In this document: positions 3,001 to 33,024 of the stretch, one piece after another
Position numbering within the stretch: position 1 is the first letter of the stretch
Layout: every line of letters begins with the position of its first letter
DNA from: Bryoerythrophyllum caledonicum
Taxonomy: Eukaryota; Streptophyta; Bryopsida; Pottiales; Pottiaceae
Length of the DNA stretch: 64,000 nt
Reading direction: 5' to 3'
Assembly (NCBI GenBank): GCA_963971425.1
Contig: OZ020518.1
Span: forward strand, 29,022,770 to 29,086,769
The notes under the pieces: generated by a model
Told to the model about the DNA's origin: nothing
The model's database searches: none
The model's input: the letters and a program-made list of their open reading frames with translations, nothing else
Program-made: the position numbers and the translations under genes

Positions 3001-3060
3001 CTTCTTGGTAACTCTAACTTCAAAAAGCCTTCAACGTATTGTCATCAAGTTGAGGACAAG
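1..3060 (+). promoter_or_regulatory. 5' region of LINE copy 1, probably non-coding
   Basis: A C- and A-rich stretch on the plus strand with several long open frames but no recognisable protein domain; codon content looks compositional, not coding. It holds GT..AG segments that look like short introns, for example about 793-850 (gtacgt to ttag) and 1117-1183 (gtatgt to ctag). A tandem pair of about 47 bp lies near 1560-1651. An inverted repeat gggaggtg/cacctccc sits near 2850-2879. Copy 2 has a similarly AC-rich leader with different tandem repeats. I infer a long leader or promoter region; where the element truly starts is not visible. Confidence 0.5.
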
Positions 3061-4719: not shown

Positions 4720-4721
4720 TA

Positions 4722-5031
4722 TTGCCAAACAACGCTGCAATAAATCAATACATACCAGTATATATGTATACTATATTACACAATATAAAAATCCAGAAAA
4801 AACATTACAAAAACTCATACAAACCAAAAACAAAAACAAAAACTTTAGTATATTTATATTCTATTAAACACAACAATTACAAAAAAAATATAAACAAAAA
4901 CAAAAAAAGATATAATATAGTATATATATATACTATTGTCATACCAATATTCTACCAAAAAATACATCAAAAGCAAAACATAATATATCATTATACTACC
5001 AAACAAACCAAAAATAACAACAATAAACACC

Positions 5032-5088
<57 letters not shown>

Positions 5089-5816
5089 ACCCCACACCCC
5101 TCCCACTAACGGCCATAAACATTATACATTACAAAATATCAATTTTACTTTGTGGAGACATTGAAACTAACCCCGGCCCAATGCCAAATGTCTTCCGCAA
5201 CCACCCAAAAACACACAAAAGGTTATCAAAAATATATTTTATTCCAAATACTATAAAACTCCATCCCGAATATCAACACCTAGCATCTTCCTTCGCACCA
5301 CTTCTAAAAAATAATCACACACTTCACCAAACATACTCCACCCTCTACCCCAACATATCCCACTACATACAACAAAAAAACAATCACCCATCCACACATA
5401 TATTATTCGCCATAATCACCACCCTCCACCCTTCAATAGATGAATGCAACAATATCACTAGCCAACACTCTACCAACACAAACCCCACACATTGGACAAA
5501 TATACTACTAAACACCCTATCCTCTCTACATAATCCCCCTGAAAGACATATAGATACACTCCACCCATACACCAAATTCCTAGAAGAAAACCAACACCTT
5601 CTTGAACACAAAACCTCTCTACACAATGACCTATATAACTTTATCCATAACCAAACCACACATCCTTCCCCCGATGAACTACAACGAAAATTTCCCTACT
5701 TCCCGCATATCTTATCTTTGAAACTCTCACATGCTTTGAACCAATCCATGCCTACACGCACCCCACCCCAACACCTGCATACATTTCCCCTCCACTTTGT
5801 AACCACGACTATATAG
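4722..5816 (+). CDS. LINE middle ORF with 2A peptide and an unknown conserved domain
   Basis: This frame lies -1 to ORF1 and is open across the ORF1 stop, so translation could arrive by frameshift or by stop-coupled reinitiation; no strong ATG precedes it (first in-frame ATG about 4764). The first 140 residues are low-complexity K, N, Y, T and a polyglutamine run encoded by CAA repeats (5031-5087). Then comes LLCGDIETNPGP, a canonical 2A sequence that makes the ribosome skip the last Gly-Pro bond, followed at once by MPN and about 210 residues of unknown function (blocks PPERHID and FLEENQHLLEH). That domain is conserved in copy 2 (PPERHIS, FLENNLNI). The ORF stops at 5814-5816, while pol continues in the -1 frame of this ORF. 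I infer that 2A frees the downstream protein from the low-complexity leader. Confidence 0.75.
5031..5087 (+). repeat. (CAA)n microsatellite encoding polyglutamine
   Basis: About nineteen CAA/ACA units sit between ORF1 and the 2A motif and are read as Gln. Copy 2 has a different simple repeat (ACAT/ACAC type) in the same place, so a low-complexity spacer is kept but not its sequence. Confidence 0.95.
5154..5180 (+). other. 2A ribosome-skipping motif GDIETNPGP
   Basis: Codons at 5154-5180 read G-D-I-E-T-N-P-G-P, matching the D-x-E-x-N-P-G-P consensus of 2A peptides found in picornaviruses and some LINEs. It is preceded by hydrophobic ILLC and followed directly by Met. The same motif is kept in copy 2 at 25855-25881 although surrounding sequence has diverged. 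Activity is inferred from the consensus. Confidence 0.92.
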
Positions 5817-8800
5817 ACAATAGAAATACAAATATAATTACATGGAACGCGTCAACGTTAAACACTGCTTTACCATGCATCCACAATCTTATCGCCCACA
5901 CCAACACACCACCCGCCATAATTGCCATACAAGAAACTAAACTAACCGCTACTAAATCCACAAAATACATCCAAAAAACATTTCCCGATTACAAACTCAT
6001 ATTCAATAATACTCACTCCCTCACACGATGCATCCAACAATGTAGGCCATATACACCGGCAAGAGGAGGCCTACTCATGCTCTTACACCAATCATATGCC
6101 TTCCCCGGGAATATTACTAAAATCCCTACCCCGGCTAACATATCACCATATCTTCAAATTATTGAAATCACTAACAGACCCCTCCAACCATGGCTCATTC
6201 TTTACCTATACATGCCCTCACATATAGAAGACTCTAGGCTTATTCCGGAAATCCAAAATTCCATCACTTCACAAATTAACACACACACTAACCATACAAT
6301 ATTACTTTGCGGAGACTTTAACCGAGATATTGCCCTTATTGGAAGACAAAACGGAGGGTTTTGTACCCCCCCACTTGACATAGACTATCAATGGCAAAAT
6401 TATACAGATAACCTAGAATTACACTTAATTCCAACCAATACACAATACTCTCGTCAAGGTGGACCTAACTACACACAAACAAGCCTGATTGATGGATTTT
6501 ACATTAAAACACCTAACCATACCCAATACACATCTTTTACCAATACCACAACCAACTTAAACTCGGACCACTTCCCAATCCAACTAAACATACCTCACAA
6601 CACCCTTATAAATAGACCCCCCACAACCATCAACTCAAATGATATTAAAATACTTAACCCCATCCCAAGAGAAAATCTTGATAACTTTAACACAATGTTC
6701 TTTGAAAAAAACTCACTACTAATAGACTCCCTTACAGATACTCTTTCTAACCACCAACACCTCACACACAAACAATGGCAAGAAGCTTGCACAACTCTTG
6801 ACAAACTCATTAAAGAAATTTCTACTACAATAGAAAAGACTTGTAAAGCACCCCCGATTCCACTACTCACCCCTAGAACCTCGAAACAAGGAGGGTATCT
6901 TCCGAGAAAATTAGCCAAAAAATGGAAACAACATCTTGTCACATACCACACTATTCGTAAAATAGTTTATATTGTTAAAACTAACCAAAATTGGCGTACC
7001 CACCCCATATTCTCTGAACTACAAAACAACCGTCACCCTCAAATACCACAGGTACCACTACCCAACACCCCTCACGAAGATTGGCTAAAAGACATTGCAA
7101 CCATTGCAAAAATTGCCAACAAAGAAGCTCGGAAAATTACTACAAAATATGCTAGAGAATGTGTTAAAAAAGCCATTTCTAAATATCGACAACTATACGA
7201 AACTAGCCCAAAAAAGATCAATAGAAAAGTCTTCAAAAATAACACAAACCTGCCACTAGACTGCATTCTAGATCAAAACAACAACATACTAACCAGCCCA
7301 GATGACATCGCAAACGAAATACATATTCAACAATCCATAAACAATAGACCAACCACCCCCCCATGCCACTTCCAACCACAACATTCATCAACATGCACGT
7401 GTGGAGTCAGGCAATACCCGTGGCATGATTTGGACGGATTTACCATTGATAAAAGAGGCGAACCAACAACACCTCTCCACACATATTATAACAGAGACAC
7501 ATACAACATGTGCCTAAAAAATTTGGGAACCAATAAAGCCCCTGGCCCGGACCATATACCTAACTCAATTCTAAAAAACATGCCCCCAAGATTCCATGAC
7601 CTTCTATCACTATTCTTTTTTCATTGCTACAAACAAAAATCCATTCCCGCATCTTGGAAAACAAGTTTAACAATCTTATTATACAAAAAAGGCAACCCAT
7701 ACATGCTACCTAACCACCGACCCATTGCCCTAGCTAACACCATCTACAAACTATATACTAGCACACTAACATCAATATTATCGGCCTATGGAGAAATACA
7801 CCAAATACTACACGAAAGCCAAGAAGGGTTTAGAGCCGAGAGAAGTACCTCACGGCAACTTCAAACCCTCATTGCCGCTCTTGAGGATGCAAAATTTACT
7901 AATAAAGACATTTACATACTCTACATCGATTTCAAAAACGCATTCGGATCCATTGACCATCCCCGACTGCTAGCCATTATGAGCGATATTGGATACCCGG
8001 AAGACGCAATCACATTGGTTGGCAATATATACTCCCAATCTACCACTACATACACTGGGGAATTCTTTGGTAATACACGCCCTATCCCTATCCAACGTGG
8101 TACCATCCAAGGCGATACACTAAGCCCATACCTTTTTATTATTTTTCTAGAACCCCTACTAAGATGGCTCCAAAGAGGTAATAATGGTTACACATTTGGC
8201 ACTTCAAAAGTTATCATAAACTCGGCCGCATATGCCGACGATCTAGCGGCCATCTCCGGGAGTCTTAAATCACTTCAAATTCAATTAGACAAAATAGATA
8301 AATTTTGTCTATGGACCGGGATGGAACTTGGGGTCCAAAAATGTGCAGTAACTGGATGCCCAAACAAATCCAAAATAAATCCGACCGCCTTCAAAGCCCT
8401 TATCCAAGCTACCAACATCCAATATCGTAACCAACCAATTCCGGTACTTAACCAAAACCAACCCTACACATACCTTGGAATAAAACTAGTTCCATCTTTA
8501 AAATGGAAAATTCAAATTCACGCTACTACTACAAAACTTATTAAACAATGTAATGAACTCGCACTATGTCCGGCAACATTGCAACAAAAAATAAAAATGA
8601 TTGATACCGTTATACGATCGGGTATCGCATACAGTTTCTATGCGGTCCCTTATTCCATGCCCGCCATAAACAAACTTGACAAAAAAATTATAGCCATACA
8701 AAAGAAAGTATGTGGACTCCCTAAGTGCACGCCCAATGTCATAACACAACTCCCTCACGAACTATTTGGATTAGAAGCCTTCTCCCTCAAAAATGCCTAT

Positions 8801-11800
8801 CTACGTTGTATTGGAGAACAACTCCAAAACGCACTTAACGACAAGGGACGACTAGGGCTAATTTACAGTGGACTCCTTCGGCACATCCTTGCCATATATG
8901 GAGGGGCACAACACCTCCAAAGACTTAAAAAATCCGATTGCCTTCGGTCACCTATTACCCGCACACTTTTTCTACTCAAAACAGAAGGCCAAGCATTCCT
9001 AAAGAGCACACTAGAAGATTTTCTACTAGACCCGGCACCGCTAGAACAAAATTGGGCAAATGAATTACACAATCTCCCTAGACTTGACCAACAATTATCC
9101 GCCAAACTCCTACAAAAACTCTTTTCCGCAAACATCACTGATCTTAAACAAATCACACTACCAAATGGAACACAACTTATAGACAAAAACTACAAAGCAT
9201 TCTACGGTACCCCTCACAAATTAATAAAAAGTGCGTTAAAAATTGCCAAACAATTATTCTGTCATCCCCCATGCCTCCCTATATGCCCCAACCCCTGCAC
9301 CACTCACGCCCCACCGTACACACTCAAAGACTCATACATCATCGATCACAATGACACCCACCCCAACATCAACCCCCCATTAATCCCTCCAAACCCGCCA
9401 CATTCACGATCATATGCCCCCCCACCACATATATTAAAAAATCCTGTCATACATCCAATAAATAACATTACCGCGCACAAACATAGAAAGTACATTGACT
9501 CTAACAACATAAGCAAACAATACACGTCATAACTATGCCATTGGTCCCACAATAACATCACCTACGCCAAATGGCTCCCACAAAGAAATCTTTTCCCCTG
9601 GCACAACCCAAATACTTCCTTACATAACACCGAAATCCTCACACAATACTACCTTAGAACTCAAAACAATTATTACCTAAATATCATACAAGTACACCAC
9701 CCTCAAACACAACCTCGAGATAGAAGATTTGTAACGCCACCTCTTATTATCCCCCTTCTTAACATCTTTACAACCGAATGTAACCCCGAAACGGACATCC
9801 TAGCACAAACAAATACAATCAAAATACAACAAGATAATGCCCACATATACGAAGGTAATGGTAGACACCTAATAACCATACCACTCAACAGACTACAATG
9901 GCTGTGGAATCAATATCACAACGCACTCCAAAGCCACATTAACATTGAACCAATACCCCAAACATTTGAAACCGAAATTGTTTGGCTATACCAAAGATAT
10001 AACTACCGGACACCCAAAAATGACCCCCTTAAAAATGCACACTACACATTACCCGTTCCTATCCTAGACTACCTTATTACATCTCTGAATATCACACATT
10101 CATACTTTTCATCCCCCGTTACATGCTCCACAAAAATCTCAAAATTTTACTCCCCATTTGAACGAGATAAGATTTTTGGTTCTCTTGGTAAAGCTTTTTA
10201 TTATAAGTGGAGCGGAATAGGCCTCGCACACCCTCACAACGAAGAAGAAACACAACAAGCAACACATTGGGCACGCCTAGCGGCAAATAATGATCCCAAC
10301 CACAACATCACCATTATTATCACTCCCGACACTCATTGGTACCACAACTCTAACCCACACTTAGGTCCATTCCCGGACTCCCACATCATAGCTCTATTTG
10401 AAGCGGACTCTATGATTTACAAAGAACCCACTATACAACCGCAAATACAAACACCCCGACTTGAACCAGCAACCCTACGTATCCTATGTATACATCAACA
10501 AACTGGAGAAATAGGTACTTTAGAAAACCTCACTCATCTCACTTTGATAGCAAAAAATCTAAATATTAACATGGTATACACCGCAATTGCTTCTCCCACA
10601 CCTATTCCAACCCACGTAAACCGCAACAAAAAATGGTCTAAAACCCCATACACAAACATCTCCGCATTACCAATTACCGAATTGAGCCTCCCCATCTCCT
10701 ACTACCAAATTAATACAGACCTTAAATTTGACCCCAACCTTAGCTACTACACTGACGGCTCTTTCAAAGAACCAACCGAAGTAAGCCCGGGACATTGGCA
10801 CCGAGAAAAAGCCGGATATGGGATATATAATTCAACCAAACAAATTAAATTAGGCAAAAGACTACATGGACTCCAAAATATTCTACGAGCCGAAATGATG
10901 GCTATACATAAAACCCTTAAGATAATCACCACTCAATACCCCAACGAACCGGCTCACATATTTACAGATTGCATAAATGTATTATATCTCCTTAATACAC
11001 ACATTAAACACCCTACTTTTCACAACAGTCACCCGGATAAAACTATCCTTACATCTATGATTGAAATGCTTCAAAAACGCACACAGATTACTACACTCCA
11101 CAAAGTCCGAGCTCATGCCAATATCGACGGCAATGAACAAGCCGACAAACTAGCAAAGGAAGGAAGAGAAAAAACCCACAAGAATGCCGAACACCCATAT
11201 GAACACGCCCACGCCACCCCATATTACTTCCATAGATATGAATGGCCCTCTATGGGTGAAACCCCCGATAAAGGCCCCATACGATTCTTGGACAAATACC
11301 TCAAAAAACATGATCTTAAAAATAACCTAGAAGAACTGACAGAAAACTTCCCCAATATTGATAAATGGACCGGCAACCCAAATATTCACAACGCAATGTC
11401 CAATAATTTTTGGAAAAACCCCATAATTACGGACTCACAAATCACATGCCTAATCAAATTCCGCACCGGACAATACATGGGAAATGCCCGCAAACAACTC
11501 TTCTTCGGAATTGAAAGATTCCCTACAATAACATGTCCAATTTGCAACACCACGGACCCGGATACATGGCTACATGTCTTACTCAAGTGCCAAAACCCCC
11601 ATATACACTCACTAATTGTCAAAAGACATAACAAAGCCGTATGGGCTATTCGTAAACTACTTATTTCATCAACCAAATCCCGGTGCTTCATTCTCATGAA
11701 TGCCGGAACCTTTAATGATAACCCACAAGAAAATACGGTCCCCCCTTGGCTATTACCATGCATTTGTCACACTCAAAGATGCCACTGCAATGCAAGATTC

Positions 11801-12211
11801 AAACCGGACCTACTATGTGTTAGAGGACTTCCATACAAAGACCCCCCACCTAACCACATTGACCCGAGTCTCACTATTCAGTTTATTGAATTCACATATT
11901 GTAATGATAGATTCTCTCCGGACACTATTGTAAACAAAACAAACAAATTCAAACAATTACTTGACGATATTCAAGCACTAGGATGGAAAGTAGACCCCCT
12001 CATTGTCATCACAGCGGGTGCTAGAGCCACCACCTTCATTCCTTCTATGACAACCCTTGAAGATACATTCAAAATTCCCATCACTTCAATCAAAACCACC
12101 TTTTCTAATATTAACACTATTGCAATTCAACATGCTATGTCGATACTCCTGCATAAACGTAAACTTGAAAACAACCAACCCCTTCCTGTCACATTGAACC
12201 CCCCTCCATAG
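5741..12211 (+). CDS. LINE pol: AP endonuclease, RT, RNase H, CCHC, restriction-like nuclease (one stop)
   Basis: One frame from about 5741 to 12211, broken only by TAA at 9530-9532. The AP endonuclease shows QETKL (about 5931), GDFNRDI (about 6316) and SDHFPI (about 6560). RT shows KAPGPDHIPNSIL, LYIDFKNAFGS (catalytic Asp codon 7928), GTIQGDTLSPYLF and YADD (8231-8242). RNase H has its four acidic residues: YTDGSF (Asp codon 10754), AEMMAIH (Glu 10892), FTDC (Asp 10967) and NEQADKLA (Asp 11144). Then comes CPIC-x9-H-x4-C (11534 on), KRHNKAV, and a PD-(D/E)xK-like core: KPDLL (Asp 11807), FIEFTY (Glu 11888) and NKTNKFK (lysines from about 11936). CCHC, then RHN, then PD..E..K is the order in R2-type restriction-like endonucleases. 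The pol therefore carries two nuclease types, as in Dualen. Its start is set by frame only; it lies -1 to the 2A ORF. Confidence 0.9.
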
Positions 12212-12543
12212 ACCTATATTTGCACTTCACCGTACACGCCCTCCCCCCTTTTTTTTTTCTTCTTTTTTTTTTTTTTTTTTTTATATATATATTTTTTTTA
12301 TATATATATATATATTTTTTTTTATTTTTTTTATTTTTTTATTTTTTTTTTAAAAAGACTTTTGGGACCTAGGGTCCTTTGTTATTGGTTACTTGTTACC
12401 GTGGACATAGTGTCTACCTTCGAAAGGGGGAAGTAGTTCCATACTACTAATCCATGCCCGGTGGGCATGGACTTAGTGGTGGAATGAACAGACACTTTAT
12501 TCACGCCGGCCCCCTTCGGGGACCGGCGTTCTTCTTCTTCTTC
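12212..12543 (+). other. 3' UTR and tail of LINE copy 1
   Basis: A run of T and TA about 105 nt long (12248-12352) is followed by about 190 nt closely shared with the end of copy 2. A hairpin at 12503-12529 has arms acgccgg and ccggcgt closed by a TTCG-type loop, and (TTC)n follows at about 12528-12543. By analogy with other LINEs this end is the likely template-recognition signal for the RT. Confidence 0.8.
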
Positions 12544-13576
12544 TGCATGCTGGGGGTTCTTTGCATACCTTGCATACAAGTGTAGATTCGGATGGGGGTG
12601 GCTGGTCTACTGTAAAAGCTTGGAGGGTACAACCTTCAAACTCAGTCTCGTTAACTTGATAAATGCGAGGTCGGCGTTCCAGAAATGGGCACTCCTTGTT
12701 GTTGCAACGCAGCCATCCAACGCAGCTGGAATAGCGAAAAGAGAGGCCAAAGTCGTTTGTGATGTTGGTGGTGATGGTCTTGGTCCACACGTGGCCGTCG
12801 TATCGCTTGTCCATTCCTTGCATAGACTTCGCTTGCGACCTTGAGGCTCCTTCACCAGTTGGGGGCAACTAAAAAATAACTGCACCATCGAACACTGCAG
12901 GCAAGTACTCAACTCTCTCGTGTCTAATGAATGAGTAGTCTATTTTTTTCAGAATGTTTTTCTTCCCTGGTCTCTCGGCAAGTTTGCGAAGCAATGGGAC
13001 TAGACTAACAGTCTCCACCTTTGAAGATTGAGAGGGAGTGGGACATTTAACTGGAAGCGCAACCGGCGGCCTGGAATCTACAGTTTGTTTTGGAACATGA
13101 GGGGTTGATTTCATAGGACTAGTTTCCTCGTCTGAGGAGAGAGAGATGACTGGCGTTGCAACAGGAGTTTCCAGGCCAGGCTCTACTTTAACCTTCACGT
13201 CACGAGGAAGTGAAGTCTGAACAGTACATGTAGAGGAACGACGGGGAGTTAGAATCTCCGTGGATGCCTGCATCTGAGAATTTGTGAGACCGTATACTCT
13301 ATACCTACCGGGATAGAGATTCCAAAACACAGTATTGTCATCGTCTCTCTCTGAAACCTGATCATCTGTATGCATAACCTCTGAGGTCTCATCGTCGTAT
13401 ATCTCCTCCTCAATACTAATAGTATCCTCTCTGAAGTGGAATCTAAGGCTGAGGCGAAGCGCCGTAACTGTTGCCAACCCATCATCATCTACACGTACTG
13501 TAAGTGGGATGCCAACGCCTTGAGCTCGGAGTACGGCCATACCTAACACTCTCTCTGCAGGGAGCTGCGCCATCAC
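12544..13576 (-). pseudogene. Plant repeated-family protein, cut by LINE copy 1
   Basis: Reading from 13576 leftward there is a 235-residue frame, then one TAG (12869-12871), then the same frame goes on to the LINE tail. The second half has a Cys/His-rich core: GLSFRYSSCVGWLRCNN, then CPFLERR, NETEFEG and CKVCKEPPAC, which looks like a small zinc-binding domain. I recall similar sequences as hypothetical proteins in mosses and ferns, but the function is not known to me. The N-terminal half is acidic and Ser/Pro-rich with no domain I recognise. The coding sequence is replaced by LINE 3' sequence straight after PPAC, so the LINE landed in this gene and any 3' part lies left of the window. One stop plus the insertion argue for a dead copy; a short intron around the TAG is not excluded. 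Confidence 0.5.
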
Positions 13577-14018
13577 TGATAGTGGGGCGCGAATGGAAAT
13601 TGCGTAAGGAATTTAATAACCTAGAATGAGAGGAATGTTGCATCGACGATCATCAATTTATGCGATCCAATAGATCAGGTAGTTTTGAATGCATTCTCGA
13701 CGATACTTCAATGAACGAACGTAATCCTGTTGGCTACCTGGCACATAGTTTAATTTTATTAGGTAGCCGCCATTTCTCATTACTACATCATGCTGCAAAT
13801 TCTACTTGTCCATAAAATTCTCTGAGATTAGTATCAGCCGTCTTTGCTAGTTAGAAATAGGTGATTGTTTTGAAATGGAAGTAAATCATTATTATTTATG
13901 ACAAGACATCCTAGCAAGTGTCCATCCTATAAAATATAGGGTGTAGAGCTAGAAGCTACATTAGGGTGACAGCAACTACTTTGATATTGCATACCGGACG
14001 AAGCTATCTTGCGTGCGG
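13577..14018. other. Intergenic, no feature seen
   Basis: Ordinary mixed-composition sequence upstream of the minus-strand gene fragment. No coding frame, repeat or RNA gene is visible; promoter elements could be here but I cannot point to one. Confidence 0.5.
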
Positions 14019-14075
14019 TGAGGTGTGAGCGGTGAGCAGTGAGGCATGAGCGGTGAACGGTGAGCGGTCAGAAAA
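14019..14075 (+). repeat. Short GTGAGCG-type minisatellite
   Basis: Repeated short units such as gtgagcggtgagcag and gcggtgaacggtgag, about 7-15 bp each and degenerate, with no coding meaning. Confidence 0.7.
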
Positions 14076-14430
14076 AAGTTGGTAAAAAGTTTTTGAAAAT
14101 TGTCACTTTTTACTATATAAAAGTTACTTTTTCACTATATAAAAGTAATTTTTTAACTATACGATAGTAAACAGACTACAGGAACTGAAACTTATGTTAC
14201 CAAAAATAATCTAAAATAAGGATTCCAAGACAGCCTTATGACCGGGAAAGGAGCAAGACAATTTCACGTACATGGCCGCGGACAGAAACTGTGAAAAACA
14301 AACAAAAAAGAGGAAAAAAAAAGTAAGTAAAAAAAAATGAGAAAATAAAAGAGAGAAAAAGTGACAAAAAAGATAAAAACAAAGTGAAAAAAAATTACAA
14401 AAAAGTGGAGATTGAAAAAGTACGAGTGAT
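14076..14430 (+). other. A-rich low-complexity stretch
   Basis: Includes a pair of near-identical segments (actttttactatataaaagt type, about 14105-14150) and a purine-rich run at about 14290-14420. No gene is seen. It abuts the foldback element. Confidence 0.6.
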
Positions 14431-15665
14431 TGCACGACACTATGCGGGTGTGCCGCTAGCGGCACACCTCCCATCATTCAAACCTTGGTTCCTAAAAGGT
14501 GCCAAGGTATGAGCGATGGAAGTTGTGCCGCTAGCGGCACACCCCCGTAACGTCGTGCTTATGAATGATTGCGCAACACTATGGAAGTGTGCCGCTAGCG
14601 GCACACCTCCCATCACTCAAACCTTGGTTCCTAAAAGGTGCCAAGATATGAGCGATGGAAGTTGTGCCGCTGGCGGCACACCCCCGCAACGTTGTGCTTA
14701 TGAATGATTGCGCAACACTATGGGGGTGTGCCGCCAGCGGCACACCTCCCATCACTCACACCTTGGTTCCTAAAAGGTGCCAAGGTATGAACGATGGGAG
14801 GTGTGCCGCTGGCGGCACACCCCCGCAGCGTCGTGCTTATGAATGATTGCGCGACGCTATGGTGGTGTGCCGCCAGCGGCATAGCTCCCATTGCTCACAC
14901 CTTAGTTCTTAAAATGGCCATATCTCACTCAAAAATAGTCCAAATTTAGCGTGCGATATGTTTTCTGGCATCTAGAGAAAATTTTAATGTCAAAACACAC
15001 CTTAAACGCTTAATTTGGGCTATTTTTGAGTGAGTTATGACCATTCAAAGGTGCCAAAGTGTGAGCGATGGGATGTATGCCGCTGGCGGCACACCCCCAC
15101 AGAGTAGCGCAATCACTCATTAGATTGACTCTGTGGGGGTGTGCCGCCAGCGGCATACCTCCCATTCTTCACACCTTGAATCCTTCTATGGTCATAACTC
15201 ACTCAAAAATAGCCCAAATTAAACGTTTGAGGTGTGTATTGACATTAAAAAAATTTCTAGATGCCAAAAAACATATTGCACGCTTAATTTGGACTATTTT
15301 TGAGTGAGATATGGCCATTTTAAGAACTAAGGTGTGAGCGATGGGAGCTATGCCGTTGGCGGCACACCCTCATAGCGTCGCGCAATCATTCATAAGCACG
15401 ACGCTGCGGGGGTGTGCTGCGAGCGGCACACCTCTCATCGCTCATACCTTGGCACTTTTTTGGAACCAAGGTTCGAGCGATGGGAGGTGTGCCGCTGGCG
15501 GCACATCGCCATAGCGTCGCGCAATCACTCATAAGCACGACGCTGCGGGGGTGTGCCGCCAGCGGCACACCTCCCATCGTTCATACCTTGGCACCTTTTA
15601 GGAACCAAGGTTTGAGTGATGGGAGGTGTGCCGCTAGCGGCACACCCCGATAGTGTCGTGCAAAT
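14431..15665. mobile_element. Foldback-like element made of palindrome-bearing subrepeats
   Basis: A near-symmetrical inverted structure centred near 15113. The left edge ttgcacgacactat is matched by atagtgtcgtgcaa at the right edge. Each arm holds units of about 139 bp containing the 16-bp palindrome GTGCCGCTAGCGGCAC or a one-base variant (GCTGGC/GCCAGC), about fourteen copies in all. Unit boundaries carry ccttggttcctaaaaggtgcc or its complement. An inner pair (about 14925-15050 and 15185-15320) is a longer inverted repeat with the core ctcactcaaaaatag. Long internally repetitive inverted arms with no coding sequence fit a foldback-type nonautonomous DNA transposon. No clear target duplication was found at the edges, so class membership is inferred. 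Short open frames inside are produced by the repeats. Confidence 0.7.
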
Positions 15666-15689
15666 AGTGTGACTATGGCATAGTGTCAC

Positions 15690-17054
15690 CCCCATAGTCT
15701 CGCAAAAATTTTACGATAAATATCCTGAAGAGTGTCAATGGACCAGAAAATTGGTTGATGACTGGGTCTCTACGGCGGTGAAAAGGGTCGAGGACAGTCA
15801 GCAGTCGGAGCTAAAGAAGTTGCTTCCAATTGCAGATCCAGATCTCATGCCGGCTTTCTTTGAGGAGATCAAAGTCCACTACGAAAAATTTGAAGCTCTA
15901 GAGATGCTCAAGGAGAATCTCTATATTTCTTGAAAACTGTTATTGGCTTTTGCGGGGGGTACTTGCATGACGACGGGGCACTCCTCTTGTTTCATCCAGT
16001 CAACCCGCAGGTCAAGAGGGAGATCCAGAGTTACCTTAACAACAGCAGTCTGATGGTCAAGGATGACTGGACAATCGTGAATTCCATGCATTTAACTCAT
16101 CCCACCACGCACTCCAAATTCATAAGCCAACCAAATCTTTCCATTTGTCCCTTCACCTCTGCTTTTATTGCAAAGCCAATATTAACTTATCATTTGTTTT
16201 CCTTGCATTTCAGACTCTAATGTTCAAAGCAATACTGCTGATTCGATCCTTAGATCTATCACTGAGGCAGCCGAAGGATTTGGTCATTAGACACGATCCA
16301 CGTTTTGGAAAAATAAATCTTGTAAAAGATGATTGCATCACAATGTTGTCACCGAGGATTCAGCTCTCAAGGTGAAGAAGGATGGGACGCTGTGGAGGGG
16401 TCCGAAGGAGAAAGCAGTGGCTTTCCTCCAATTGCTAATTACTGGCCTTTGCCCCAACGAGGGCATAGTCATCGACCTCAATGCTGGAACAAGTATTGCA
16501 TACACTCTATTCCATGATCCGATACCGCTCTCATATGGTTCTCATGTGATTTCATCATTGGTTTGTTGTTTTTAGGAGCTTCTATTCGAGCGGCCATGAA
16601 TACTGGCAGGCAGATTCTTGCCCTCGAGGCTGACACAGAAATCTACGAGGAGGAACTCAAGCCTCTCCAGATTGCCCCGGCCCCGACTGCTTCTGATGTT
16701 GTCATGCTGGACGATGAAGAACCCTTGCCCGATGTGGATCGAATTGACCTCTGTAAGTAAGTCCTTTTTGTCAAAGTCTCATGGTTCCTATCTGTCATTC
16801 CATAATCCGATTTAGAACTAATCATTACCTTGTTTTGCAGTCTGAGTCCAATGAGCTCTTGGGGAGGATACAGGTCACCCACTACCTCAGACCTACTGCT
16901 TCCATGTTATGCAGAAAGTTTGGCAACCCGAATGGCTGAAGAATCTTCCCAAAGCTCCAGCGCGTCCTCCTCTCCCCGTGAGAGATTCGATCCTAGGGCC
17001 CGAGTTTTCTTAGATGTGAGTGCTTCAGAGAGTGAAGACGAGTTTGTACCATGA
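15690..17054 (+). pseudogene. DNA N4/N6-methylase-like gene, probably decayed
   Basis: Several plus-strand segments look like exons of one gene. The first (about 15700-15930) reads KFYDKYPEECQWTRK and then a helical region. A second, in another frame, reads GFCGGYLHDDGALLLFHP. A third has DGTLWRGPKEKAVAFLQLL and GIVIDLNAGT. An apparent intron (about 16492-16575, gtattg to tttag) leads to ASIRAAMNTGRQILALEAD. The pair 'WRGPKEKAVAFLQLLI' plus 'VIDLNAGT..AAMNTGR..ALEAD' matches the end of the DNA methylase N4/N6 fold, where the SAM-binding loop and GR..G.E motif occur. No DPPY catalytic motif is visible. The tail is Ser-rich and acidic. The frame change near 15925 and stops between blocks suggest decay, though unrecognised introns could explain some of them. 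Known relatives occur as repeated genes in non-seed plants; the activity of this copy is unproven. Confidence 0.45.
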
Positions 17055-17535
17055 GACTTTACAGTTATATGGATTTGGACTTCTTTGTACAGTCCTCTAC
17101 TATATAATTTGGTTGAATGCTTGGGCCATTGTTCTTCTATGGATCCTGTCTTCCTAATATATCATATGGTGCATTACTCTCTTCACAGAAGTTTGAATGT
17201 TGTTGAATTTACCAACGACAAGGCTAAGACAAACATAAAGTATATCTCAAATTTCAATTTATCAGCCTCAACACCTAACCCATTGTCTTTGAAGTGTTTT
17301 CTGACCTCTGGACCTTCTCAAAACCTTGCAACTCACTTAACTTGATTTTCTTCGTTCCCTCCAATTCCTAACGAGACCCTAGTCAGTGAAACAACAAATT
17401 ATGTCTGAAGTACGCCCATGACATTTCTTCAAGAATAAAGCTGAGATATAAGGAAAAAATGAAATATGTCTGCTGTTACAAGTGCCGTTAGCACTTGGCC
17501 TCCTTAGTGCTATATAGTAATCTGTGGTGGTCATG
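17055..17535. other. Intergenic, no feature seen
   Basis: AT-rich sequence between two convergent gene remnants; it may hold their 3' UTRs. No repeat or RNA gene recognised. Confidence 0.5.
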
Positions 17536-19029
17536 TCAACTCTTGCTTCCAGTAATTTTGGGTGTGTTGATACTATCACTAGCTGCCTTCAAAACTACGG
17601 AGAAGCTTGTACACTCAATTTCTTGTTGGGGGTTTAACTCGCCACCAAACTGGGCAACCCATGGTTCTACAAGGTGGATTGGAGACGAGGCTAGGAGGAC
17701 ATCCTTGCAAATCTTGCATCGATAACTCTGGCATGAAATCATTTCTGCAACACAGGGAGGGTGCAAAAAACAACCACAGGAGGAGAGTACAACTGCTTTC
17801 CAAACGAATCCCAAGCCACAGTAAGCACAAGCATCTTTACGTGGATAACCCAAAGGTCGGACAGATTGGACCTTGGGATATTCAAACACTCTTGGTGTTT
17901 TTAGAGTAAGCATCTACCCCCTTGCAGTCGAGACTGCTCCCTTACATGTTAGTAACTCTGCATTGGCATCCTCCATTACTTTAGCTTCATTACCCAACTC
18001 AAATTCCAACTGAACAATATTCTCTCAGATTTGAGCATCAGCCTCCCGCATGTTAGCCAGTTCCTTATACAATGCCTCAGACTCTGCAACAGTTGCCTTG
18101 TATTGTACTGTGGGACCCTCTCTACGTAGAATCTGCCGGGCCTCCTTAAGTTTTGAAACGTTTTTCTCATTTAAATCTTCTTCTGCAATTTCAGAGGATT
18201 TAGCCCGCATCCTTTAAAGACTAGCGTTGTACCTCTGCCGTATCTCGTGAAGGCGCTCCTCCACAGCCTTCACTATGTCAGCCCTTTGGCGCTCCACTTC
18301 TAGTGCTGCTTGGAGCTCATGAACTAGAGGATTAGGTCCCGCTTCACCTCTACCTATACCACATAATTCCTTGATTATCGTGCACAGGCCCTCTACTTGG
18401 CATCTAGTTGCAACTGGGCCTAGTTTTGTTGGATTTCGCCATGCGTTCTTTAGGCGAGCTTCCTGTCGGTCCAATGCCTCAGCACACCAATTCATTGGCT
18501 TCCCATAAATAAAAGTTGCAAAGCAAGCCTTTAGAAAATGAAGACAGAAGTAGTTGTTATGGGGCCTGTTACCGTACACCTTGAAGTACTGCTGACCAAA
18601 CATCTTCAGTTGCTCCTCATCTTCGCACCTTGAGAACTCATAACGCCCCTTTGAGACTCCCTCCTTCCACACAACAGTTACTTCTTCATCTGTGATGAAA
18701 CTGTAGCACTTGGAAACATCCCTTAAAAGCGGCCCTTGATCATAAAGCCCAACAACATCAGTAAAGAACTTGCTACCATACTCTGCATCTCGCCCCATGA
18801 GCATTGGCGCTGCAACAAGCATCCGCTGACGCACCCCCTCTTCGATGTCACCGAGTTCAAATGGGTCGCCAAACTCCTCTGTGCTGAATACTCGATTACT
18901 TCCGCCCTCTCCATCACTTCGAATTCCAGTGTTATCGTCACTAACTTCTTGGACATCAGAAGCACCCTACACAGAACTTCGGTGTCTAGTTCTCTGCTGC
19001 TTACTCGCCTTCTTCCTCTTCGACGTCAT
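17536..19029 (-). pseudogene. RING-like zinc-finger protein, one or more breaks
   Basis: From the ATG at 19029 leftward the frame reads MTSKRKKASKQQRTRH, meets one TAG (18967-18969), then runs open to 18214. It contains KFFTDVVGLYDQGPLL, KCYSFITDEEVTVVWKEG and NWCAEALDRQEARLKNAW, followed by a charged coiled-coil stretch (ELQAALEVERQR, AVEERLHEIRQR). A second coiled-coil piece lies at 18025-18210. Near 17830-17620 there is a Cys-rich block, CAYCGLGF, SSCGCFLHPPC, CKICKDVL, with the spacing of a RING-type finger. Such an arrangement would suit a ubiquitin ligase-like protein, but that is inference. I do not recognise the family. At least one stop and frame changes between blocks indicate a pseudogene or an unsolved exon structure. 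Confidence 0.45.
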
Positions 19030-19853
19030 CTTCTTATCTATCACAGAGTCACCCCCTCAGAAGTCCCCCTTCACCTTTGAACACTTGGTAACTAATACTT
19101 CGCAGTAAACTTTCTCACTTTCCACTACCACTGAACAACGATACAGTGCTGAAAGAAAATGCTGCAGATGGATCACCATGTTGACATTGTAGGAGAGTGA
19201 ACAACAAGTAGAACCCAAGCGCAAAATGATAACCACTGATGATCCTAGCCGCAAAACACATGACTGTATTTATTATATTCATTAGACATGTCTGAAATTA
19301 TTTATCATTTGTACAACGAGGAGGCGCCTTCATTAGAAGTGGACTGGCCAGGCTTGGATACTCACAAGTTAAGGTAGACATTATTGTTGGAAATTATTAC
19401 ATTCAACGAGGTTACTCGTACACAGAATCATAAAGATAAAGGAGAAGACGGCTGTTTAAAATGTTCAAAACAGTCCATATAAAGACCCTAAACCAAAACA
19501 TGAAACATTAAAAAATTAAACAACACATAAAACATGACATAAGAAAAAAGGAAAAATAAAATTAAAAAATTAGAAAAAAATGATACAATGGATGAAGAAT
19601 TAAATCATTATCTGCTAATTAAGATTGGAAAAATGCCATGGTGAAGATGAATTTAAGAAATCGTCATACAACTGGAATTTAATAATTTAAAATCGCAAAA
19701 CAAAGAAATCGTATTAAATGATTAGTATAATGAAATTAAAATATAGACAATAAATCAGAACCAAAAAAAAAAAAAATCAAAATCAAAAAAATATAAAAAT
19801 ATAAAACATAAATAAAATATTAGGAAAGGACTTAAGCCACTCTCATAGTAAAA
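19030..19853. other. AT-rich intergenic, no feature seen
   Basis: Mostly A-rich, especially 19490-19820. No coding frame, repeat family or RNA gene recognised. Confidence 0.5.
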
Positions 19854-20312
19854 TCAATCTAACCTATTCTTAGGGGAGACCCAGATACCACGTCGTGGTG
19901 CAATCTTCTCTCCCGGCTGCAGCCAGAGAGAGTGGTTCCTATTGTCACTTAGCAATGACCTCAACTGATCTACTTCACAACAACTAAGTTCGCCAAGTGA
20001 CGTTGTCTCTAACCTCTCATTATTAATTGGATCTGCTAATGACCAATAATTCTTAAAGATGTTCCAGTTCACGTTGAAGCAATATGCTTCATACTCGTCC
20101 TTCGGAGTCCAGTGCCCTCCTCTATATGAAACGTAATCCCATTTTGCTAGCCAAAGGCAAGCATATTCAAGACTGTCGTCAATCTCACGTTTCCAAAGCT
20201 TGGACACAACACGAGCATTCTCAACATCTTGAAACGTGATTATCGGTGGAGGAGTCCAACACCGTGTTCTACTACATCCCAGTAGATCCCAAGGGTCAGG
20301 ACTGTCTGCCAT
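19854..20312 (-). CDS. Hypothetical protein, possibly F-box-like fragment
   Basis: An open frame of 152 residues starting MADSPDPWDLL at 20312. It contains ITFQDVENARVVSKLWKREI, which resembles the second and third helices of an F-box (the 'lRlVSK.Wr' pattern). The rest is Trp-rich (CLWLAKWDYVSYRGGHW, NWNIFKNYW) and unfamiliar. An F-box protein would recruit substrates to an SCF ubiquitin ligase, but the leading LP motif is absent and the match is weak. No neighbour supports a role. It could be a real small gene, one exon, or a fragment. Confidence 0.35.
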   Translation of the reverse strand: MADSPDPWDLLGCSRTRCWTPPPIITFQDVENARVVSKLWKREIDDSLEYACLWLAKWDYVSYRGGHWTPKDEYEAYCFNVNWNIFKNYWSLADPINNERLETTSLGELSCCEVDQLRSLLSDNRNHSLWLQPGEKIAPRRGIWVSPKNRLD

Positions 20313-21057
20313 CCACTGAAGCAGATCCTACAAGGTTGTTTCACTGGCGATGACCTCAAGGGAATTGCTCAATCTCTGAAAATGCTCTGTGGCGGGTGCA
20401 AGATTCAGTTCTAGAAATGATTTCGTTGAGACGTGTTGATATCTTTACAACAAGGTTCATATGAGATTATGATTCACAGAAAAGGTACAAGTGATGTTCT
20501 TTAAAGGCGAAGAAATTTTCGATGTAGACAAGCACTATGACATGGAATAAATTTTGGTTTCAGCAACACTATTATTGTACACGATTTTTAATATATTCTA
20601 GGAAGTTTTCAAAGCCATTATGTCATGTTCTATGAAATATGTTTTTACTTTCTATTCAAAGTCCAGAGGGGCAAAGTCATATGTCTAGTTGTGGGACTTT
20701 TTGTGCTTTTGTAATTATTACTATTTAAAGAAGATAGGATTAGTATAATCACGGAAAGATGTAAATAAAATAGAAGTGACTTAGGTCTTATATCATAAAA
20801 ATATACTGTGATGTACGCATGACATCATCATGACGTCAACCCTAATTTTAATGGCTTAATATGAATCTAGTTGAGCTGAGAGTTTTAGGATTAGAAATCC
20901 ACGGAAATACAGACCTTTATTAAAAATATTCCTAAAAATATTTGCCTAAATTTTGTATTTCTCCACGGTTACAGGGTACATTTTTCTTTCAAAGATTTGG
21001 CGAAAGGTCAAATTTATGCTCTCCATTTTCCGCTCTCCGCTCTCCGCTCGCATGCTA
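20313..21057. other. Intergenic, 5' flank of LINE copy 2
   Basis: Mixed sequence with no gene recognised. At 21018-21052 the motif cgctctc is repeated about three times. The switch to AC-rich sequence near 21058 is my estimate of where the LINE leader begins. Confidence 0.4.
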
Positions 21058-21225
21058 ACTTTCCCCAAACAGCTACAAGCAGCTCACGATTATCAAGAAG
21101 TCCAAGCTGCCGAAGAAAGAACGTGGCCTAAAGCCACAAAAGCAACACCAAAGCTCGCGAAGTCACGTCGCAGCTAGAAGCGGAAGCCCTCGAAGCAGAC
21201 TAAGTATCTCTATCTGCCACGACCG

Positions 21226-22442
21226 AATACATGTAAGATCCTTACATCCTCCCACCAATCTTGATCCTTTTCTTCATGCGGCAGCCCTTGGTACATGTGC
21301 AACAGACCCGACCTTGAGCCAGAAAGAAGACATCAGCTGACAAGCTCAAACCACACCTGCACAAGAAGGTACACACAACATCAGAAGACAAACAAGACTA
21401 AGGCCGAATCTCAAAACCGGATCAAATCAACTGCCACTCGAGATAGGACACAAGTAGTTATTACTACTTGCGAATATATTGACAACCTGAGAAGGTGCAA
21501 CAAATTTAATATAGGCGGAGAGACTCTAGCAGAACATCCACAAAAATCACACAAGACACTGCGACACAGAAGACACCCGACACTCCCGCTACAACTACAC
21601 CGGAGACGTAAACGCAACATCCAAGAAAACGACATACAAAAACGACACAGAAGACAGCCACAACTCCAAGGGTACCGGGACTACACAACACAAGATCAAG
21701 ACGGCGACCCCCCTCAGAGAACTCAAGCCCCACCCACGCAGAGCAACGGACGGACTACCGCCGAACAGACTGACCAAGACCAAGTTTACAGCCTCCCCCA
21801 AGGAACCCAACGCCCTCACACCCGAAGTCTCAAACCCTTGCCCCTGAAGAATACCAGCACAGGATCCCCTCACGCACGTGGCCCTAAACGCCCGCCCTCG
21901 ACGTATCCCAACCCAAGACCTGCACACCAGCGCCCCAACACATGACCCCCTCACGCTCGCGACATCAAACCCCCGCCCCTGACAAATCTCAACCCAAGAC
22001 CTGTAAACCACCGCCCTAAGGATCAAGACCAAGGACAGAGACACAAGCCGACATATCAAGTCTCAGCCCTCCAAATCAAGATGACAACTGAAACAGGGAC
22101 CCGCTCCGACTCGACACAAGTTACAACATCGACCCCAAGACTCCACATCAGGTACGCAACTCTACTAACAAACTCTCATGCAGGACATGACAACCGACAC
22201 CAAAGAGGCAAGACTAGACAACAAAGACGAGTACTAAACTACGACGACACAACCAAGACACAAGAATCCCCGCCACCAACAAAGAAGAACGATAGCTCCG
22301 CCGTCCCTCACCAACGACATCATGCACACAAGTTAGTTCCACATGAGCTATCGCAAGAAACACAAGTGCCAGACCCAACTGGAGCATCCAAGAACATAAC
22401 GGTAAGTATACATCTCACATCGACACTAATCATGAACCTGCA
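21226..22442 (+). promoter_or_regulatory. Leader of LINE copy 2 with short intron-like segments
   Basis: AC-rich leader with at least three short GT..AG intervals having good 5' sites and A-containing branch-like motifs: about 21232-21284 (gtaagatcc to gcggcag), 22152-22184 (gtacgcaac to atgcag, with ctaac inside) and 22400-22442 (gtaagtata to ctgcag, with ctaat inside). Each is only 30-55 nt. Whether they are spliced is unknown; the pattern is also present in the copy 1 leader. Confidence 0.35.
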
Positions 22443-22738
22443 GGGGTGAGAAAAACAATCCGAAGGGCAGCTGCAGACAGGGAACCCTCAGACGAGGGCC
22501 ACAACCAACTATTCCTCCGGAGCACAGATACACAAGAAATCGAGAACAGGAACAGGAATAACTTCCCTACAAGACCGGCACTCATAGAATCGCAAGCGCG
22601 CAGCGAACTCAGGCGCAAAGGCTCGAGACCAGATCAGGCGCACGACAAGGCGGGAGCACCACAAACAAGCACACAACAACAGAAGGGAGGCACGAGGGAG
22701 ATTCCCCAGAGAAGAACAAGGTCTCCGCACAACTCCAA

Positions 22739-22912
22739 GGAGGCCCTAGAGAGAGGAGTAAGGAGATTGAAGAGAGCTGAGGAGGGCCCGAGAAGAAACG
22801 CAAGACTCTTGCAGAGAGCCGAGAGGGAGGCCCTAGAGAGAGGAGCAAGGAGACTGAAGAGTGCCGAGGAGGCCCCAGAAGAAACGCAAGACTCCTGCAG
22901 AGAGCCGGGAGG
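22739..22912 (+). repeat. Two tandem 87-bp units in the LINE copy 2 leader
   Basis: The unit starts ggaggccctagagagagg at 22739 and again at 22826, with the same following sequence ending in cagagagcc. It is purine-rich and read through as Arg/Glu-rich sequence. Not present in the copy 1 leader. Confidence 0.85.
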
Positions 22913-23179
22913 CAGGAGACGACAGCAAAGGCCGAGGCCCTCGAGGGGAGAGTGATACGTTATAGTGAGGCCCCAGTGCCTCACCTTATATCCCAAGCCG
23001 CCCCTCTCACGGGGACAAGACAACTCAAGCCATCAGACAAGGCCGCCAAAGGCGAACAGACCTCAGGAGCTGCAATCCACATGAAGCCATCTCGAGTGCA
23101 CATCAACCCCCCTTCCGGATCCCAAGTAAGTCCCCTCACACTCATTCAAGTTATTTCACATTCAAAGTACAAGCTAACC

Positions 23180-24823
23180 ATGAGTGGCAGAAGAGGCACA
23201 GTATTTGACGAAGCAATGGAAGTTGATGACGTGACGGCGTACAAAGTGGTTGCCCCGAAAGAGAAAGGTTCAAGGAAGAATACGGACCAAACCGGCAGCA
23301 GTAAGAAGAGCAAGAACGCCCAAGAAGACAAAGGTAAGTCCACTAAACCACTACCACTAACTTCATACCTAAATCTATGGCTAGGATTTGAAGTCATGGA
23401 GCGCATCGCGATAGATGAAGGAATGGCAGCCCCCACAAGTGACGAAACCATAGAAGACAAGATGGCCAGGGGTTTCAAAGCTAACGAAGCGGAAGAAGTA
23501 ATGGAGGCTAGAGAGGCCTTTCCAAGGATCCCCCAACTACTATATCCTTGCAAGAGAAGAGGAGCACAAGAACAACACTACAATATCACCCAAGTCCCAC
23601 AAGACATCAAGATCAATGAGGCCAGAGGTTTGGCCTTGGACTTCCACATTGCTATCTTTTTCGAACCTCCCACCATTGTTATGTTGTATGATGATGTATA
23701 CAACATAATAACTAGAAGATTAGAAGAAATGGACATTAAACTAGGCACAAGTTTGATTGATCCAATCTACATCTAATGTCAAAGTGTCAAAAGAGGAGGT
23801 CAAAAGGGGGTATGGGCGGGGATGTTTAAATTGCACCTACTTAACCCCGACACGGATGGTCTCATGCTACTTAAAGGCCTAAGGCCTTTCATACTAGTGA
23901 TAGATAATCACAAGATCATTGGTAAAGTATGTAAGACCTATCACCACACGGCTAACGCCACTAACCTCTCCGTGTGCATTAGAAGTGATTCCTTGATAGG
24001 TATCCCGGCTCACCAACTCATCATGGACATCTTCCACAATAGCTTCAACCGAGGCCAAGACTTCGAGGTCACCGGAGTGCAAAAGGTCACAAGTGATCCT
24101 TGTGCCTTCGTCTCTACCACCACTCCACAACAACCCTTGAAGATCCAACTACAACACGTTACAACCCAACACATAGTCCTTCAAGCAAAGAAAACCTTCA
24201 CCGGGGGGCGTATGACACCCAAAACAAAGGCAAAAAAGGATGCCCTCACTCTCACCCTATCTCCCTTGCCTATTCTCATGAGTGTTGTCGATACCACTAA
24301 TGCCACCTACATAGTCCTAGGAATTAATAACACTAAGAGCATATGGTTTCACAAAGAGAATGGTGAAAGGCATAATGGGAGTGCAAATGTGGAATGTACT
24401 AACCTTATCGTATATAGGAAGTTCGTGAAGAAGACAATCAAGATTGGAGATAACCACGTGGACTTTGCTCCACACTGAAGAAGCTTGGAAGGAGTGGAAT
24501 CTCCAACCCAAGAACAAGTTGAAGGTTTTGGGTTCAACGACATCAACACCGCCATGGTCAATATCGTTGCAACATTCAAGATCCAAGACACCCCCACCTC
24601 CACCAACACCAACGTCACGAAGAAAGACCTAGAAGATGCATTGGAAGAGAACAACAAGAAGATGAGGAGAGAGAATAGAGAGTACACGGATAAGCTCCAC
24701 GAAGAACTTGTTGCACAAATGGAGAGCATACAAAATTCCACGCAAGCCACCATCGAAGCTATGAGAGCCATCAAAGGGAGAGTAAAACCAAGACAAATTG
24801 AAGACACACCGCCAAACATGTGA
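23180..24823 (+). pseudogene. ORF1 of LINE copy 2, broken
   Basis: Starts at the ATG at 23180 in a good context (aaccatgag), reading MSGRRGTVFDEAMEVDD. Blocks match copy 1: LWLGFEVMERIA (copy 1 FWLGFHAMNMIA), HYNITQVPQDIKI (FNLTQLPSEVEV), RPFILVIDNHKIIGKVCKTY and NSFNRGQDFEVTGVQK. The RRM-like block and a Glu/Lys-rich coiled coil (KKDLEDALEENNKKMRREN) follow. The frame stops at 23774-23776, resumes in another frame from 23822 and stops again at 24476-24478 before the coiled coil. The last stop, TGA at 24821-24823, overlaps the next ORF, which is again -1. Confidence 0.8.
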
Positions 24824-24979
24824 AGACCAAAGACCACACGGTAAAACATATTTACCATAACACTAGTGACAAATCCTTATACCATAGGTTATTAGAACTA
24901 CACAAGTACAAAAATACGCTATACCAATACTGTACTACTATATTTACTCAATACAATCACAGTATTCTACACACATGGT

Positions 24980-25560
24980 CCAAGACATATATAAATACAT
25001 ACATACACACATATATATACATACATATACACAAGCATACATACACGTATATACATATACATATACACAAGCATACATACACATACATACACACATACAT
25101 ACACACATACATACATACACACATATTCATACACACACATATAAATATACAGGCATACACACTTACATACATACAAACAACCACACATACATACACTCAC
25201 ATAAATACAAATAAAAAACAACACACAAACATATACAAGGACACAACCACATACACACATCAAATACACATACAAATACACACTCCACCCCTACACACAC
25301 ATTCACATAAATCAACACAAACAACTACACACACCCACATACATATACACATTCAAATACATCAAAACAAACATACAAACACTCACACACCCCACTCATA
25401 TAAAAAAACACAAAACAAACCCACAAATAAACATAAACACTCATCCATACAAACATATCCACACAACCAAACACACATACACAAGCCCAAACTCACACAT
25501 AACATATATACGCACATACACACACAAACAACTATATACCCATACTCACAAACTAGAACC
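24980..25560 (+). repeat. ACAT/ACAC low-complexity tract
   Basis: Degenerate (ACAT)n, (ACAC)n and (ATAC)n repeats occupy the spacer between ORF1 and the 2A motif, where copy 1 has a CAA repeat. The open frames on both strands here are compositional. Confidence 0.9.
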
Positions 25561-25854
25561 CACACATATACAACCTCAGAGACACATACAAAGCACTACC
25601 AAAAAAACATATATAAACAAACCCTAAAAAAAGTCATAAGAAATACACATCCAAAGATAACAATTAAAACCACAAACACGAACAAAACACCAACAAACCC
25701 CACAAATAAAAATTCATACACATACACAAACAAAAACACTAAAACCAAAAACACAAAAACAAAGAAATATCCAAAATATACACACAAACCTATAACACAA
25801 AAACAAAAACAACATATCAAACCCCTATACTATATAACCCTAATAATACTAAGC

Positions 25855-25881
25855 GGGGATATAGAAACCAACCCCGGACCC
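25855..25881 (+). other. 2A ribosome-skipping motif GDIETNPGP, copy 2
   Basis: Codons read G-D-I-E-T-N-P-G-P followed by Met, identical in protein to copy 1 but with several synonymous differences (for example gat/gac, ata/att, acc/act), so the protein sequence was kept under selection before this copy decayed. Confidence 0.9.
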
Positions 25882-31800: not shown

Positions 31801-32446
31801 ACGCTAATATAGAAGGAAATGAACAAGCCGATGCACTAGCCAAAGAAGGAAGAGAAAAATCACATAAAAATGCCAAAGACCCACATGAGCACGCACATGC
31901 CACCCCATATACTTCCAAAAAGAGGATTGGCCCTCCAAAAATGACACCCCGGACAAAGCCCCGGTCCGATTTTGGGAAAATACCTCAAAAAACAAGATAC
32001 ATACAACGACATTGACACGATCTCAGAAAACTTCCCTAACATAGAAAAATCGACCGGCAATAATAACGTAGACAATGAATTATCTACAAATTTCTGGAAA
32101 AATCCCACCATTACCGATTCACAAATTACATGCCTTATCAAATTCCGCAGTGGTCAATATATGGGGAACGCCTGTAAACAACTCTTCTTTGGAATAGAAC
32201 GCTTCCCATCCATAACATGCCCCATATGTACCTCTACAGACCCCGACACATGGCTACATGTCCTACTAAAATGCCAAAACCACCACATACACTCCCTCAT
32301 TGTTAAAAGACACAACAAAGCAGTATGGGAAATCCGAAAACTAATCACCTCACATAGCAAATCTCGATGCTTCATACTCATGAATGCCGGCACTTTCAAT
32401 AATAACCCTCAAGAAAACACTGTTCCATCCTGGCTACTCCCATGTA

Positions 32447-33024
32447 CAATAGGGTGACATTCAAATTGGCCGTTTAGTAGTTCCAGGGATAGTGTCCGAC
32501 ATTGCTGCCAACTTTGACACCCTCCCCAAAGCTGAGAAATTGTTATTTTACCATGAAAATTTGGGGACAGCATCACCTTTATGTTGAAAACATGCATACC
32601 AAATTTCAAGTCCAGGAGACTTATACAAAAAAACTAATGCAAGATCTACCAACATGGGATAGCTGTGAGAAAAGTATCACAGCTGCCAACTTTGACACCC
32701 TCCCAAGAATTGAGGAAATTTTTTTTGCCCATGAAATTTTTGGAGAAAAAACATTTTTATGTTGTTTGCATGTGTGGAAAATTTCAAGTCCAAAAGACCC
32801 AAACAAAAAACAATATTCCAAATCTACCAACATGTGTAGTTTTGAGAAACAAAGGGGAAAACCATTTTACTACTTCCAATTTTGACGCCCTCCTTAGGAT
32901 TGAAATTTTGTTGATACATAATGAAATTTTTGGCACAAGATCATCTCTACGCTGGTAACATGTGAGATAAATTTCAAAGCCAAAAGATGTACACAAAAAA
33001 GTTATTCCATATCTACCAACGTGT
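32447..33024 (+). repeat. Left terminal inverted repeat of the nested Tc1/mariner
   Basis: Three diverged units, beginning near 32508, 32688 and 32874, share ccaactttgacaccctcc, aaatttcaagtccaaaagac and atctaccaacatg. The mirror image lies at 34648-35225. Confidence 0.85.

Follow-up and report, generated by a model that had tools for sequence, protein, structure and literature searches.

A probable natural 2A (StopGo) sequence at the ORF2 entrance of a large Dualen-like LINE family, putatively reached through a −1 shift out of ORF1 and a translated linker

The Dualen/RandI LINEs of green algae carry APE, reverse transcriptase (RT), RNase H, and RLE. The LINE clades known to bear 2A sequences are of the APE type, with APE as their only nuclease, belong to animals or trypanosomes, and hold the 2A close to the start of the ORF that encodes RT. 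Such 2A-like sequences were reportedly described by Odon in 2013 in Ingi/L1Tc, Rex1, Crack, L2, L2A, and CR1 elements. The element analysed here has the same core, D(V/I)ExNPGP, as these APE-type LINEs and carries the 2A in the same part of that ORF; unlike them, it combines APE with RLE, has a putative plant host, possesses an ORF1 of its own in a different frame, and places the 2A behind a hypervariable linker that would be translated in the model proposed below. APE, RT, RNase H, and RLE are common to it and to Dualen/RandI, an assignment made by domains and nearest RT relatives. The work of Odon is cited in PMC12846837 and PMC4981915, and Dualen/RandI LINEs are mentioned in PMC4640811 and PMC3747384.

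Viral F2A and T2A share the core peptide with the element, a likeness confined to the motif. In cardiovirus, StopGo and a −1 frameshift occur in one transcript (PMC5009743), as is proposed here for the LINE; the cardiovirus shift, however, comes just after StopGo and ends translation, whereas the putative shift in the present element lies hundreds of nt before the 2A and would open the ORF2 frame. The coupling of ORF1 and ORF2 in mammalian LINEs is treated in the same source. Searches of the open-access literature turned up no account of a 2A for LINEs of the Dualen type or of plants. The initial annotation knew of none for a dual-nuclease LINE in a plant.

Both motifs claimed by the initial annotation are present in the window (the whole stretch of 64 kb that was analysed): GDIETNPGPMPN is encoded at 5154 and at 25855, and a six-frame scan returned only these two matches to D(V/I)ExNPGP. 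The peptides are identical while 7 of the 12 codons differ, by 7 nucleotide differences that are all silent, as had been asserted; when 7 changes were placed at random, the peptide was kept in 1/200,000. The turnover described for the upstream sequence is equally evident, with (CAA)n in copy 1 against (ACAT)n in copy 2. The upstream reading frame, however, has not turned over: the 2A frame is open for 183 codons in copy 1 and 351 codons in copy 2, and over those stretches the other two frames contain 9 and 5 stops in the former and 14 and 15 in the latter.

All features of the two copies lie on the forward strand. ORF1 of copy 1 (2959–4719) has an MSQ near 3133 and a TAA stop at 4717–4719, and its end holds GTCAAAC (4710–4716), regarded as a candidate −1 shift site by the conservation of YYAAAC. 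The linker (4605–5153, including (CAA)n at 5016–5087) is open in the 2A frame, with 0 stops from the end of ORF1 to the motif as against 8 and 4 in the other frames. It is followed by the 2A peptide (5130–5180), comprising a hydrophobic lead of the LLLLSG-like upstream class (PMC12846837) and the core GDIETNPGP at 5154–5180; by a post-2A domain (5181–5816) in which the Pfam search gave nothing above cutoff and no Josephin; by the APE endonuclease and RT (5678–9532; PF14529, PF00078); and by a stretch (9533–12211) with a PCIF1-like domain (PF12237), RNase H (PF00075), and the RLE (11210–12211; C-terminal conservation and Foldseek). Copy 2 comprises a decayed ORF1 (22781–24823) with a TGA stop at 24821–24823 and GCCAAAC at 24811–24817, an (ACAT)n-rich linker (24802–25854) that lacks an in-frame ATG and has 0 stops in the open 2A frame against 13 and 15 in the others, the core GDIETNPGP (25855–25881), and decayed pieces of the post-2A domain and ORF2 (25920–32457, with RVT_1 in 27974–28984). 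Both copies are decayed: in the first, the frame is broken on the way from the post-2A domain to APE and a TAA stands at 9530–9532, and the second has several frame breaks. The window also contains a third LINE copy fragment (62713–63456) that by eye resembles the RT-to-RNase H stretch, a DDE_3 (Tc1/mariner-like) transposase fragment on the reverse strand (33013–33696), and a tandem array of 139-bp repeats with palindromic GC-rich parts (14427–15663).

The dual-nuclease layout proposed in the initial annotation is supported by Pfam for APE and by a model match of the C-terminus for an R2-like RLE. PF14529 scored 27.8 bits in the window copy, just over the cutoff of 27.4, and ORF2 further matched PF00078 (RT), PF12237, and PF00075 (RNase H). 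When the C-terminal 333 residues were compared with 11 relatives (12 sequences), the C-C-H-C and PD..E residues proved invariant or at least 90% conserved, and R2 retrotransposon proteins made up the top seven Foldseek matches to an AlphaFold2 model of the RLE (mean pLDDT 75.7), with E values from 2.5e-6 for the best to 1.5e-3 for the seventh; searching PDB sequences for the RLE region brought no informative match. The presence of APE, RT, RNase H, and an R2-like RLE in one element marks it as Dualen-like. The PCIF1-like region (9944–10327, within the ORF at 9533–12211) lies between RT and RNase H and is common to several database relatives; PF12237 is presumably the cap m6Am methyltransferase family. 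ORF1 of copy 1 had no Pfam family above cutoff, and its model was poor (mean pLDDT 38), with RRM-like order at residues 408–482 and a C-terminal coiled coil.

We favour, with a probability of about 0.7, the reading that a natural 2A stands at the ORF2 entrance in this large family and is reached by a −1 shift at the end of ORF1 and a translated linker. ORF1 would be translated first; a share of ribosomes would change to the −1 frame at YYAAAC, where ORF1 ends, and go on to translate the hypervariable, G-poor linker; at NPG/P a peptide bond would be skipped, so that the ORF1-linker product would be released and the ORF2 protein would start with a clean N-terminal proline, free of the linker. 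Judged from the sequences, the 2A reading is well supported, and the wider series from ORF1 through the −1 shift and the linker to the 2A and ORF2 is likely. The motif and the purifying selection on it, the −1 register, the stop-free linker, and the two nucleases can be read from the sequences, whereas the skipping itself and the way in which ribosomes reach the −1 frame are inferred. The putatively translated linker and the −1 register in which it stands to ORF1, the relatives from algae and metagenomes, and a subfamily with a dead motif all go beyond the initial annotation.

The linker directly before the 2A ranges from 296 to 3,224 nt, and in well-kept copies it is stop-free in the 2A frame alone, this frame being the −1 frame of ORF1 and the overlapping −1 ORF continuing open past the zero-frame stop. 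A positional sample was drawn of 25 places chosen by motif and not by openness, in 15 of which the ORF1 end was tabulated; the linker table itself covers 21 copies, of which W1, W2, and L063 (outside the positional sample) and L014, L025, and L028 (ORF1 end not located) were left out of the 15-copy test, and the remaining 7 places of the sample had no ORF1 end tabulated. Stops occurred in both other frames in 15/15 of these linkers, while the 2A frame had none in 6/15 and the fewest in 11/15 (P 0.002); nine of these unselected linkers do, then, carry stops in the 2A frame. The exceptions to the fewest-stops pattern were L012, L013, L019, and L020, in the first three of which a different frame is clearly stop-poor, as after an indel. 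The register was −1 in 8/15 (L002, L006, L013, L016, L017, L021, L022, and L026), and the 3,224-nt linker of L022 has 0 stops against 83 and 135.

Domain searches, which score the best 150 of 3,849 and the best 150 of 3,726 candidates, supplied further loci that were chosen for long open frames. Among them, a −1 register with 0 stops was found in L068/L069, L071, L074–L076, L079, L082, and L083; L077 has 1 stop, the register is lost in L070, L072, and L080, and no ORF1 lay within range for L078 and L081. Over the 17 zero-stop linkers, a selected set, the totals were 0 stops in the 2A frame and 275 and 267 in the others. In near-identical young copies (7 fetched of at least 16 at 328.1 bits among the best 150 of 3,849 candidates), the linker varies from 587 to 1,085 nt through (CAA)n with the frame kept.

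At the ORF1 end, [G/C]YYAAAC lies in the ORF overlap in 28 of 29 tabulated cases, as GTCAAAC (18), GCCAAAC (7), GTTAAAC (2), or CTCAAAC (1), the one miss being the decayed L003; near-duplicates (L010, L011, L058–L062, L064, L066, L067, L069, L073, L079, L083, and L084) were excluded from the 29. The AAAC half is constant in 28/29 despite the divergence of the ORF1 proteins, whose identity between lineages falls to 25–35%. The site departs from the canonical X XXY YYZ heptamer in its first half, where GUC, GCC, CUC, and GUU break the XXX rule. Stable folds (z below −2) lie behind it in 8 of the 21 sequences folded, in CAA lineages only, with z of −0.05 in W2 and +1.17 in L017; among these folds, which were modelled as pseudoknot-free, no general stimulatory structure 5–9 nt downstream was found, most stems starting 0–3 nt after the site, which is too close for a classical stimulator. 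Since the heptamer is non-canonical and the folds are restricted to CAA lineages and mostly begin at 0–3 nt, entry into the −1 frame is a step that we infer. A hairpin occurs soon after the ORF1 stop in L002, L075, L076, L082, L063, and W1 (z −1.9 to −5.5), its stems differing yet still pairing, and AGTATATATACT-like palindromes are also seen.

The same non-canonical site, together with the failure to find a universal stimulatory structure, leaves room for a functional 2A whose linker is entered with no −1 frameshift, by termination-reinitiation or from a non-AUG or linker AUG start. An in-frame ATG is indeed present in 11 of the 17 zero-stop linkers, those of the young CAA subfamily among them (L063 at −303). 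It is, however, absent from the other 6/17, and two young copies, L063 and L083, are stop-free in the 2A frame even before their first ATG (0 stops against 13/12 and 13/11). No common near-cognate start was apparent by eye, the element in common being YYAAAC inside the ORF overlap. Such a route into the linker is thus considered unlikely, albeit by no means negligible, next to the −1 shift.

The constraint on the motif itself was followed across the 437,360,962-base genome. Degenerate DNA for GDIETNPGPMP occurs at 679 + 641 = 1,320 places and for DIETNPGP at 756 + 723, with 0 for the reversed control in both searches. The downstream YFIPNTI[K/N] served as a motif-neutral anchor (802 + 780, or 1,582 places), and among the 100 listed anchors that were examined, all on contig C1, the exact motif stood at the expected distance in 71, a recognisable decayed 2A being seen by eye in 29/29 of the others. 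These counts indicate that the family inherited the motif from its ancestor and that the sampled exceptions look like decaying copies; the initial annotation, for which a majority of copies lacking the motif would have told against its claim, is not refuted by them. Among 17 chosen copies, the core had a pN of 0 at a pS of 0.60 and the linker a pN/pS of 1.14, the zero being partly built in because the motif had itself served to retrieve 12 of the 17. In a motif-blind set (17 of 27 domain-search loci, L074–L083 being left out because they end too early for the stretch compared), six cluster representatives gave a pN/pS of 0.147 (about 0.15) for the core and 0.94 for the linker, and 0 and 1.00, respectively, when the NLGP group was removed (5 representatives). 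The dN/dS check put forward with the initial annotation therefore yields purifying selection on the core (pN/pS 0.15, motif-blind) against a value near 1 in the linker, and the asserted selection on the 2A peptide is supported by copy survey and codon test alike.

Coding sequence continues in frame on both sides of the motif, the leads KLLLLLG, SIILCG, and LLLAAG match by eye the LLLLSG-like class (PMC12846837), and the core D(V/I)ExNPGP is kept in the family and not in the NLGP subfamily. Some copies carry two motifs: the upstream one reads GDMETNPRP in L004, L013, L019, L022, and L023, and the internal second motif of L071 is also broken, which would fit a need for only the ORF2-proximal 2A; counter to this, two motif pairs 510 nt apart in the genome have both members intact, and the upstream motif of P0162, P0168, and P0170 keeps NPGP. 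Tandem 2A regions (L009, L013, L019, L022, and L023) and an APE fragment inside the L022 linker suggest the capture of 5′ ends belonging to other copies, for which template switching is one conceivable route. VVEENPGP, a candidate further 2A that fits a rare variant (p12 = V), stands at the ORF1 N-terminus of the young subfamily L058–L064 only and was rejected as unconserved, the other ORF1 starts compared having NPCP, NPSP, or NPRS at the site or nothing at all.

One amplified subfamily reads KDIENNLGP (KDIENNLGPMPK) in 5/5 fetched copies, a sequence that should not skip; it accounts for at least 14 matches of one span among the best 150 of 3,726 candidates. Its amplification implies that loss of the motif is survivable and that the 2A is not indispensable, and the −1 register and open linker, kept in 4/5 fetched copies, would accordingly be independent of the motif.

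Among 31 relatives in the protein database, 24 cover the 2A site, and all 24 read G-D-I-[E/H/Q]-x-N-P-[G/D]-P at the ORF2-proximal motif (E19/H4/Q1; x = P14/T4/S3/L3; G23/D1, that is, one NPDP). A biochemical survey (PMC12846837) likewise reports positions 14 and 15 as variable, H at position 14 as highly active, E14Q as partly active, and an LLLLSG-like lead as active. The closest RT relatives from named eukaryotes belong to the green algae Haematococcus and Pleodorina, and GDVEANPGP (17) or GDIEENPGP (1) is present in 18/26 Haematococcus proteins, one of which shows the order 2A, Josephin, APE, RT, weak PHD, and RNase H, with a Josephin after the 2A where the present element has no Josephin match. 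A 2A was seen in only 3 of 120 listed RT relatives, which may include sequences short of the site, and when ORF1 was sought in the metagenomic relatives, BLASTP against 32 relatives gave no match.

In almost every copy sampled and in 24/24 covering relatives, the residue after the ORF2-proximal motif is methionine, and five metagenomic gene calls start at that Met, so ORF2 might be thought to begin at the ATG directly after NPGP, with GDIETNPGP an N-terminal remnant that has no skipping role. Nevertheless, the nine codons before this ATG are under strong peptide-level constraint, which would not be expected of untranslated sequence, and Met follows NPGP in 0/18 of the Haematococcus proteins that have it; this start is very improbable. 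Recent common ancestry of the copies without peptide selection, to which the many copies in clonal subfamilies lend some colour, is the least probable account of the uniform peptide, given silent divergence at a pS of 0.44–0.60 with core pN near 0 and the same core in relatives that vary mainly at tolerated positions.

More tentatively, and at rather less than even odds, one group of LINEs within the green lineage could be envisaged as recoding twice in succession, first by a non-canonical −1 shift at YYAAAC into a fast-evolving, microsatellite-driven linker that is translated, then by a 2A that insulates the ORF2 protein from this linker; the 2A common to Haematococcus and the present family would on this view predate the divergence of chlorophytes and streptophytes. 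StopGo is a common tool in plant work, but a 2026 survey (PMC12846837) reports no natural case of it among plant viruses. A cellular family of high copy number that possibly uses 2A naturally in a plant or green alga may offer native variants tuned to those ribosomes. The model would also give testable answers to how a two-ORF LINE can make its ORF2 protein from one transcript and how the element copes with a leader whose length goes up and down through slippage at microsatellites.
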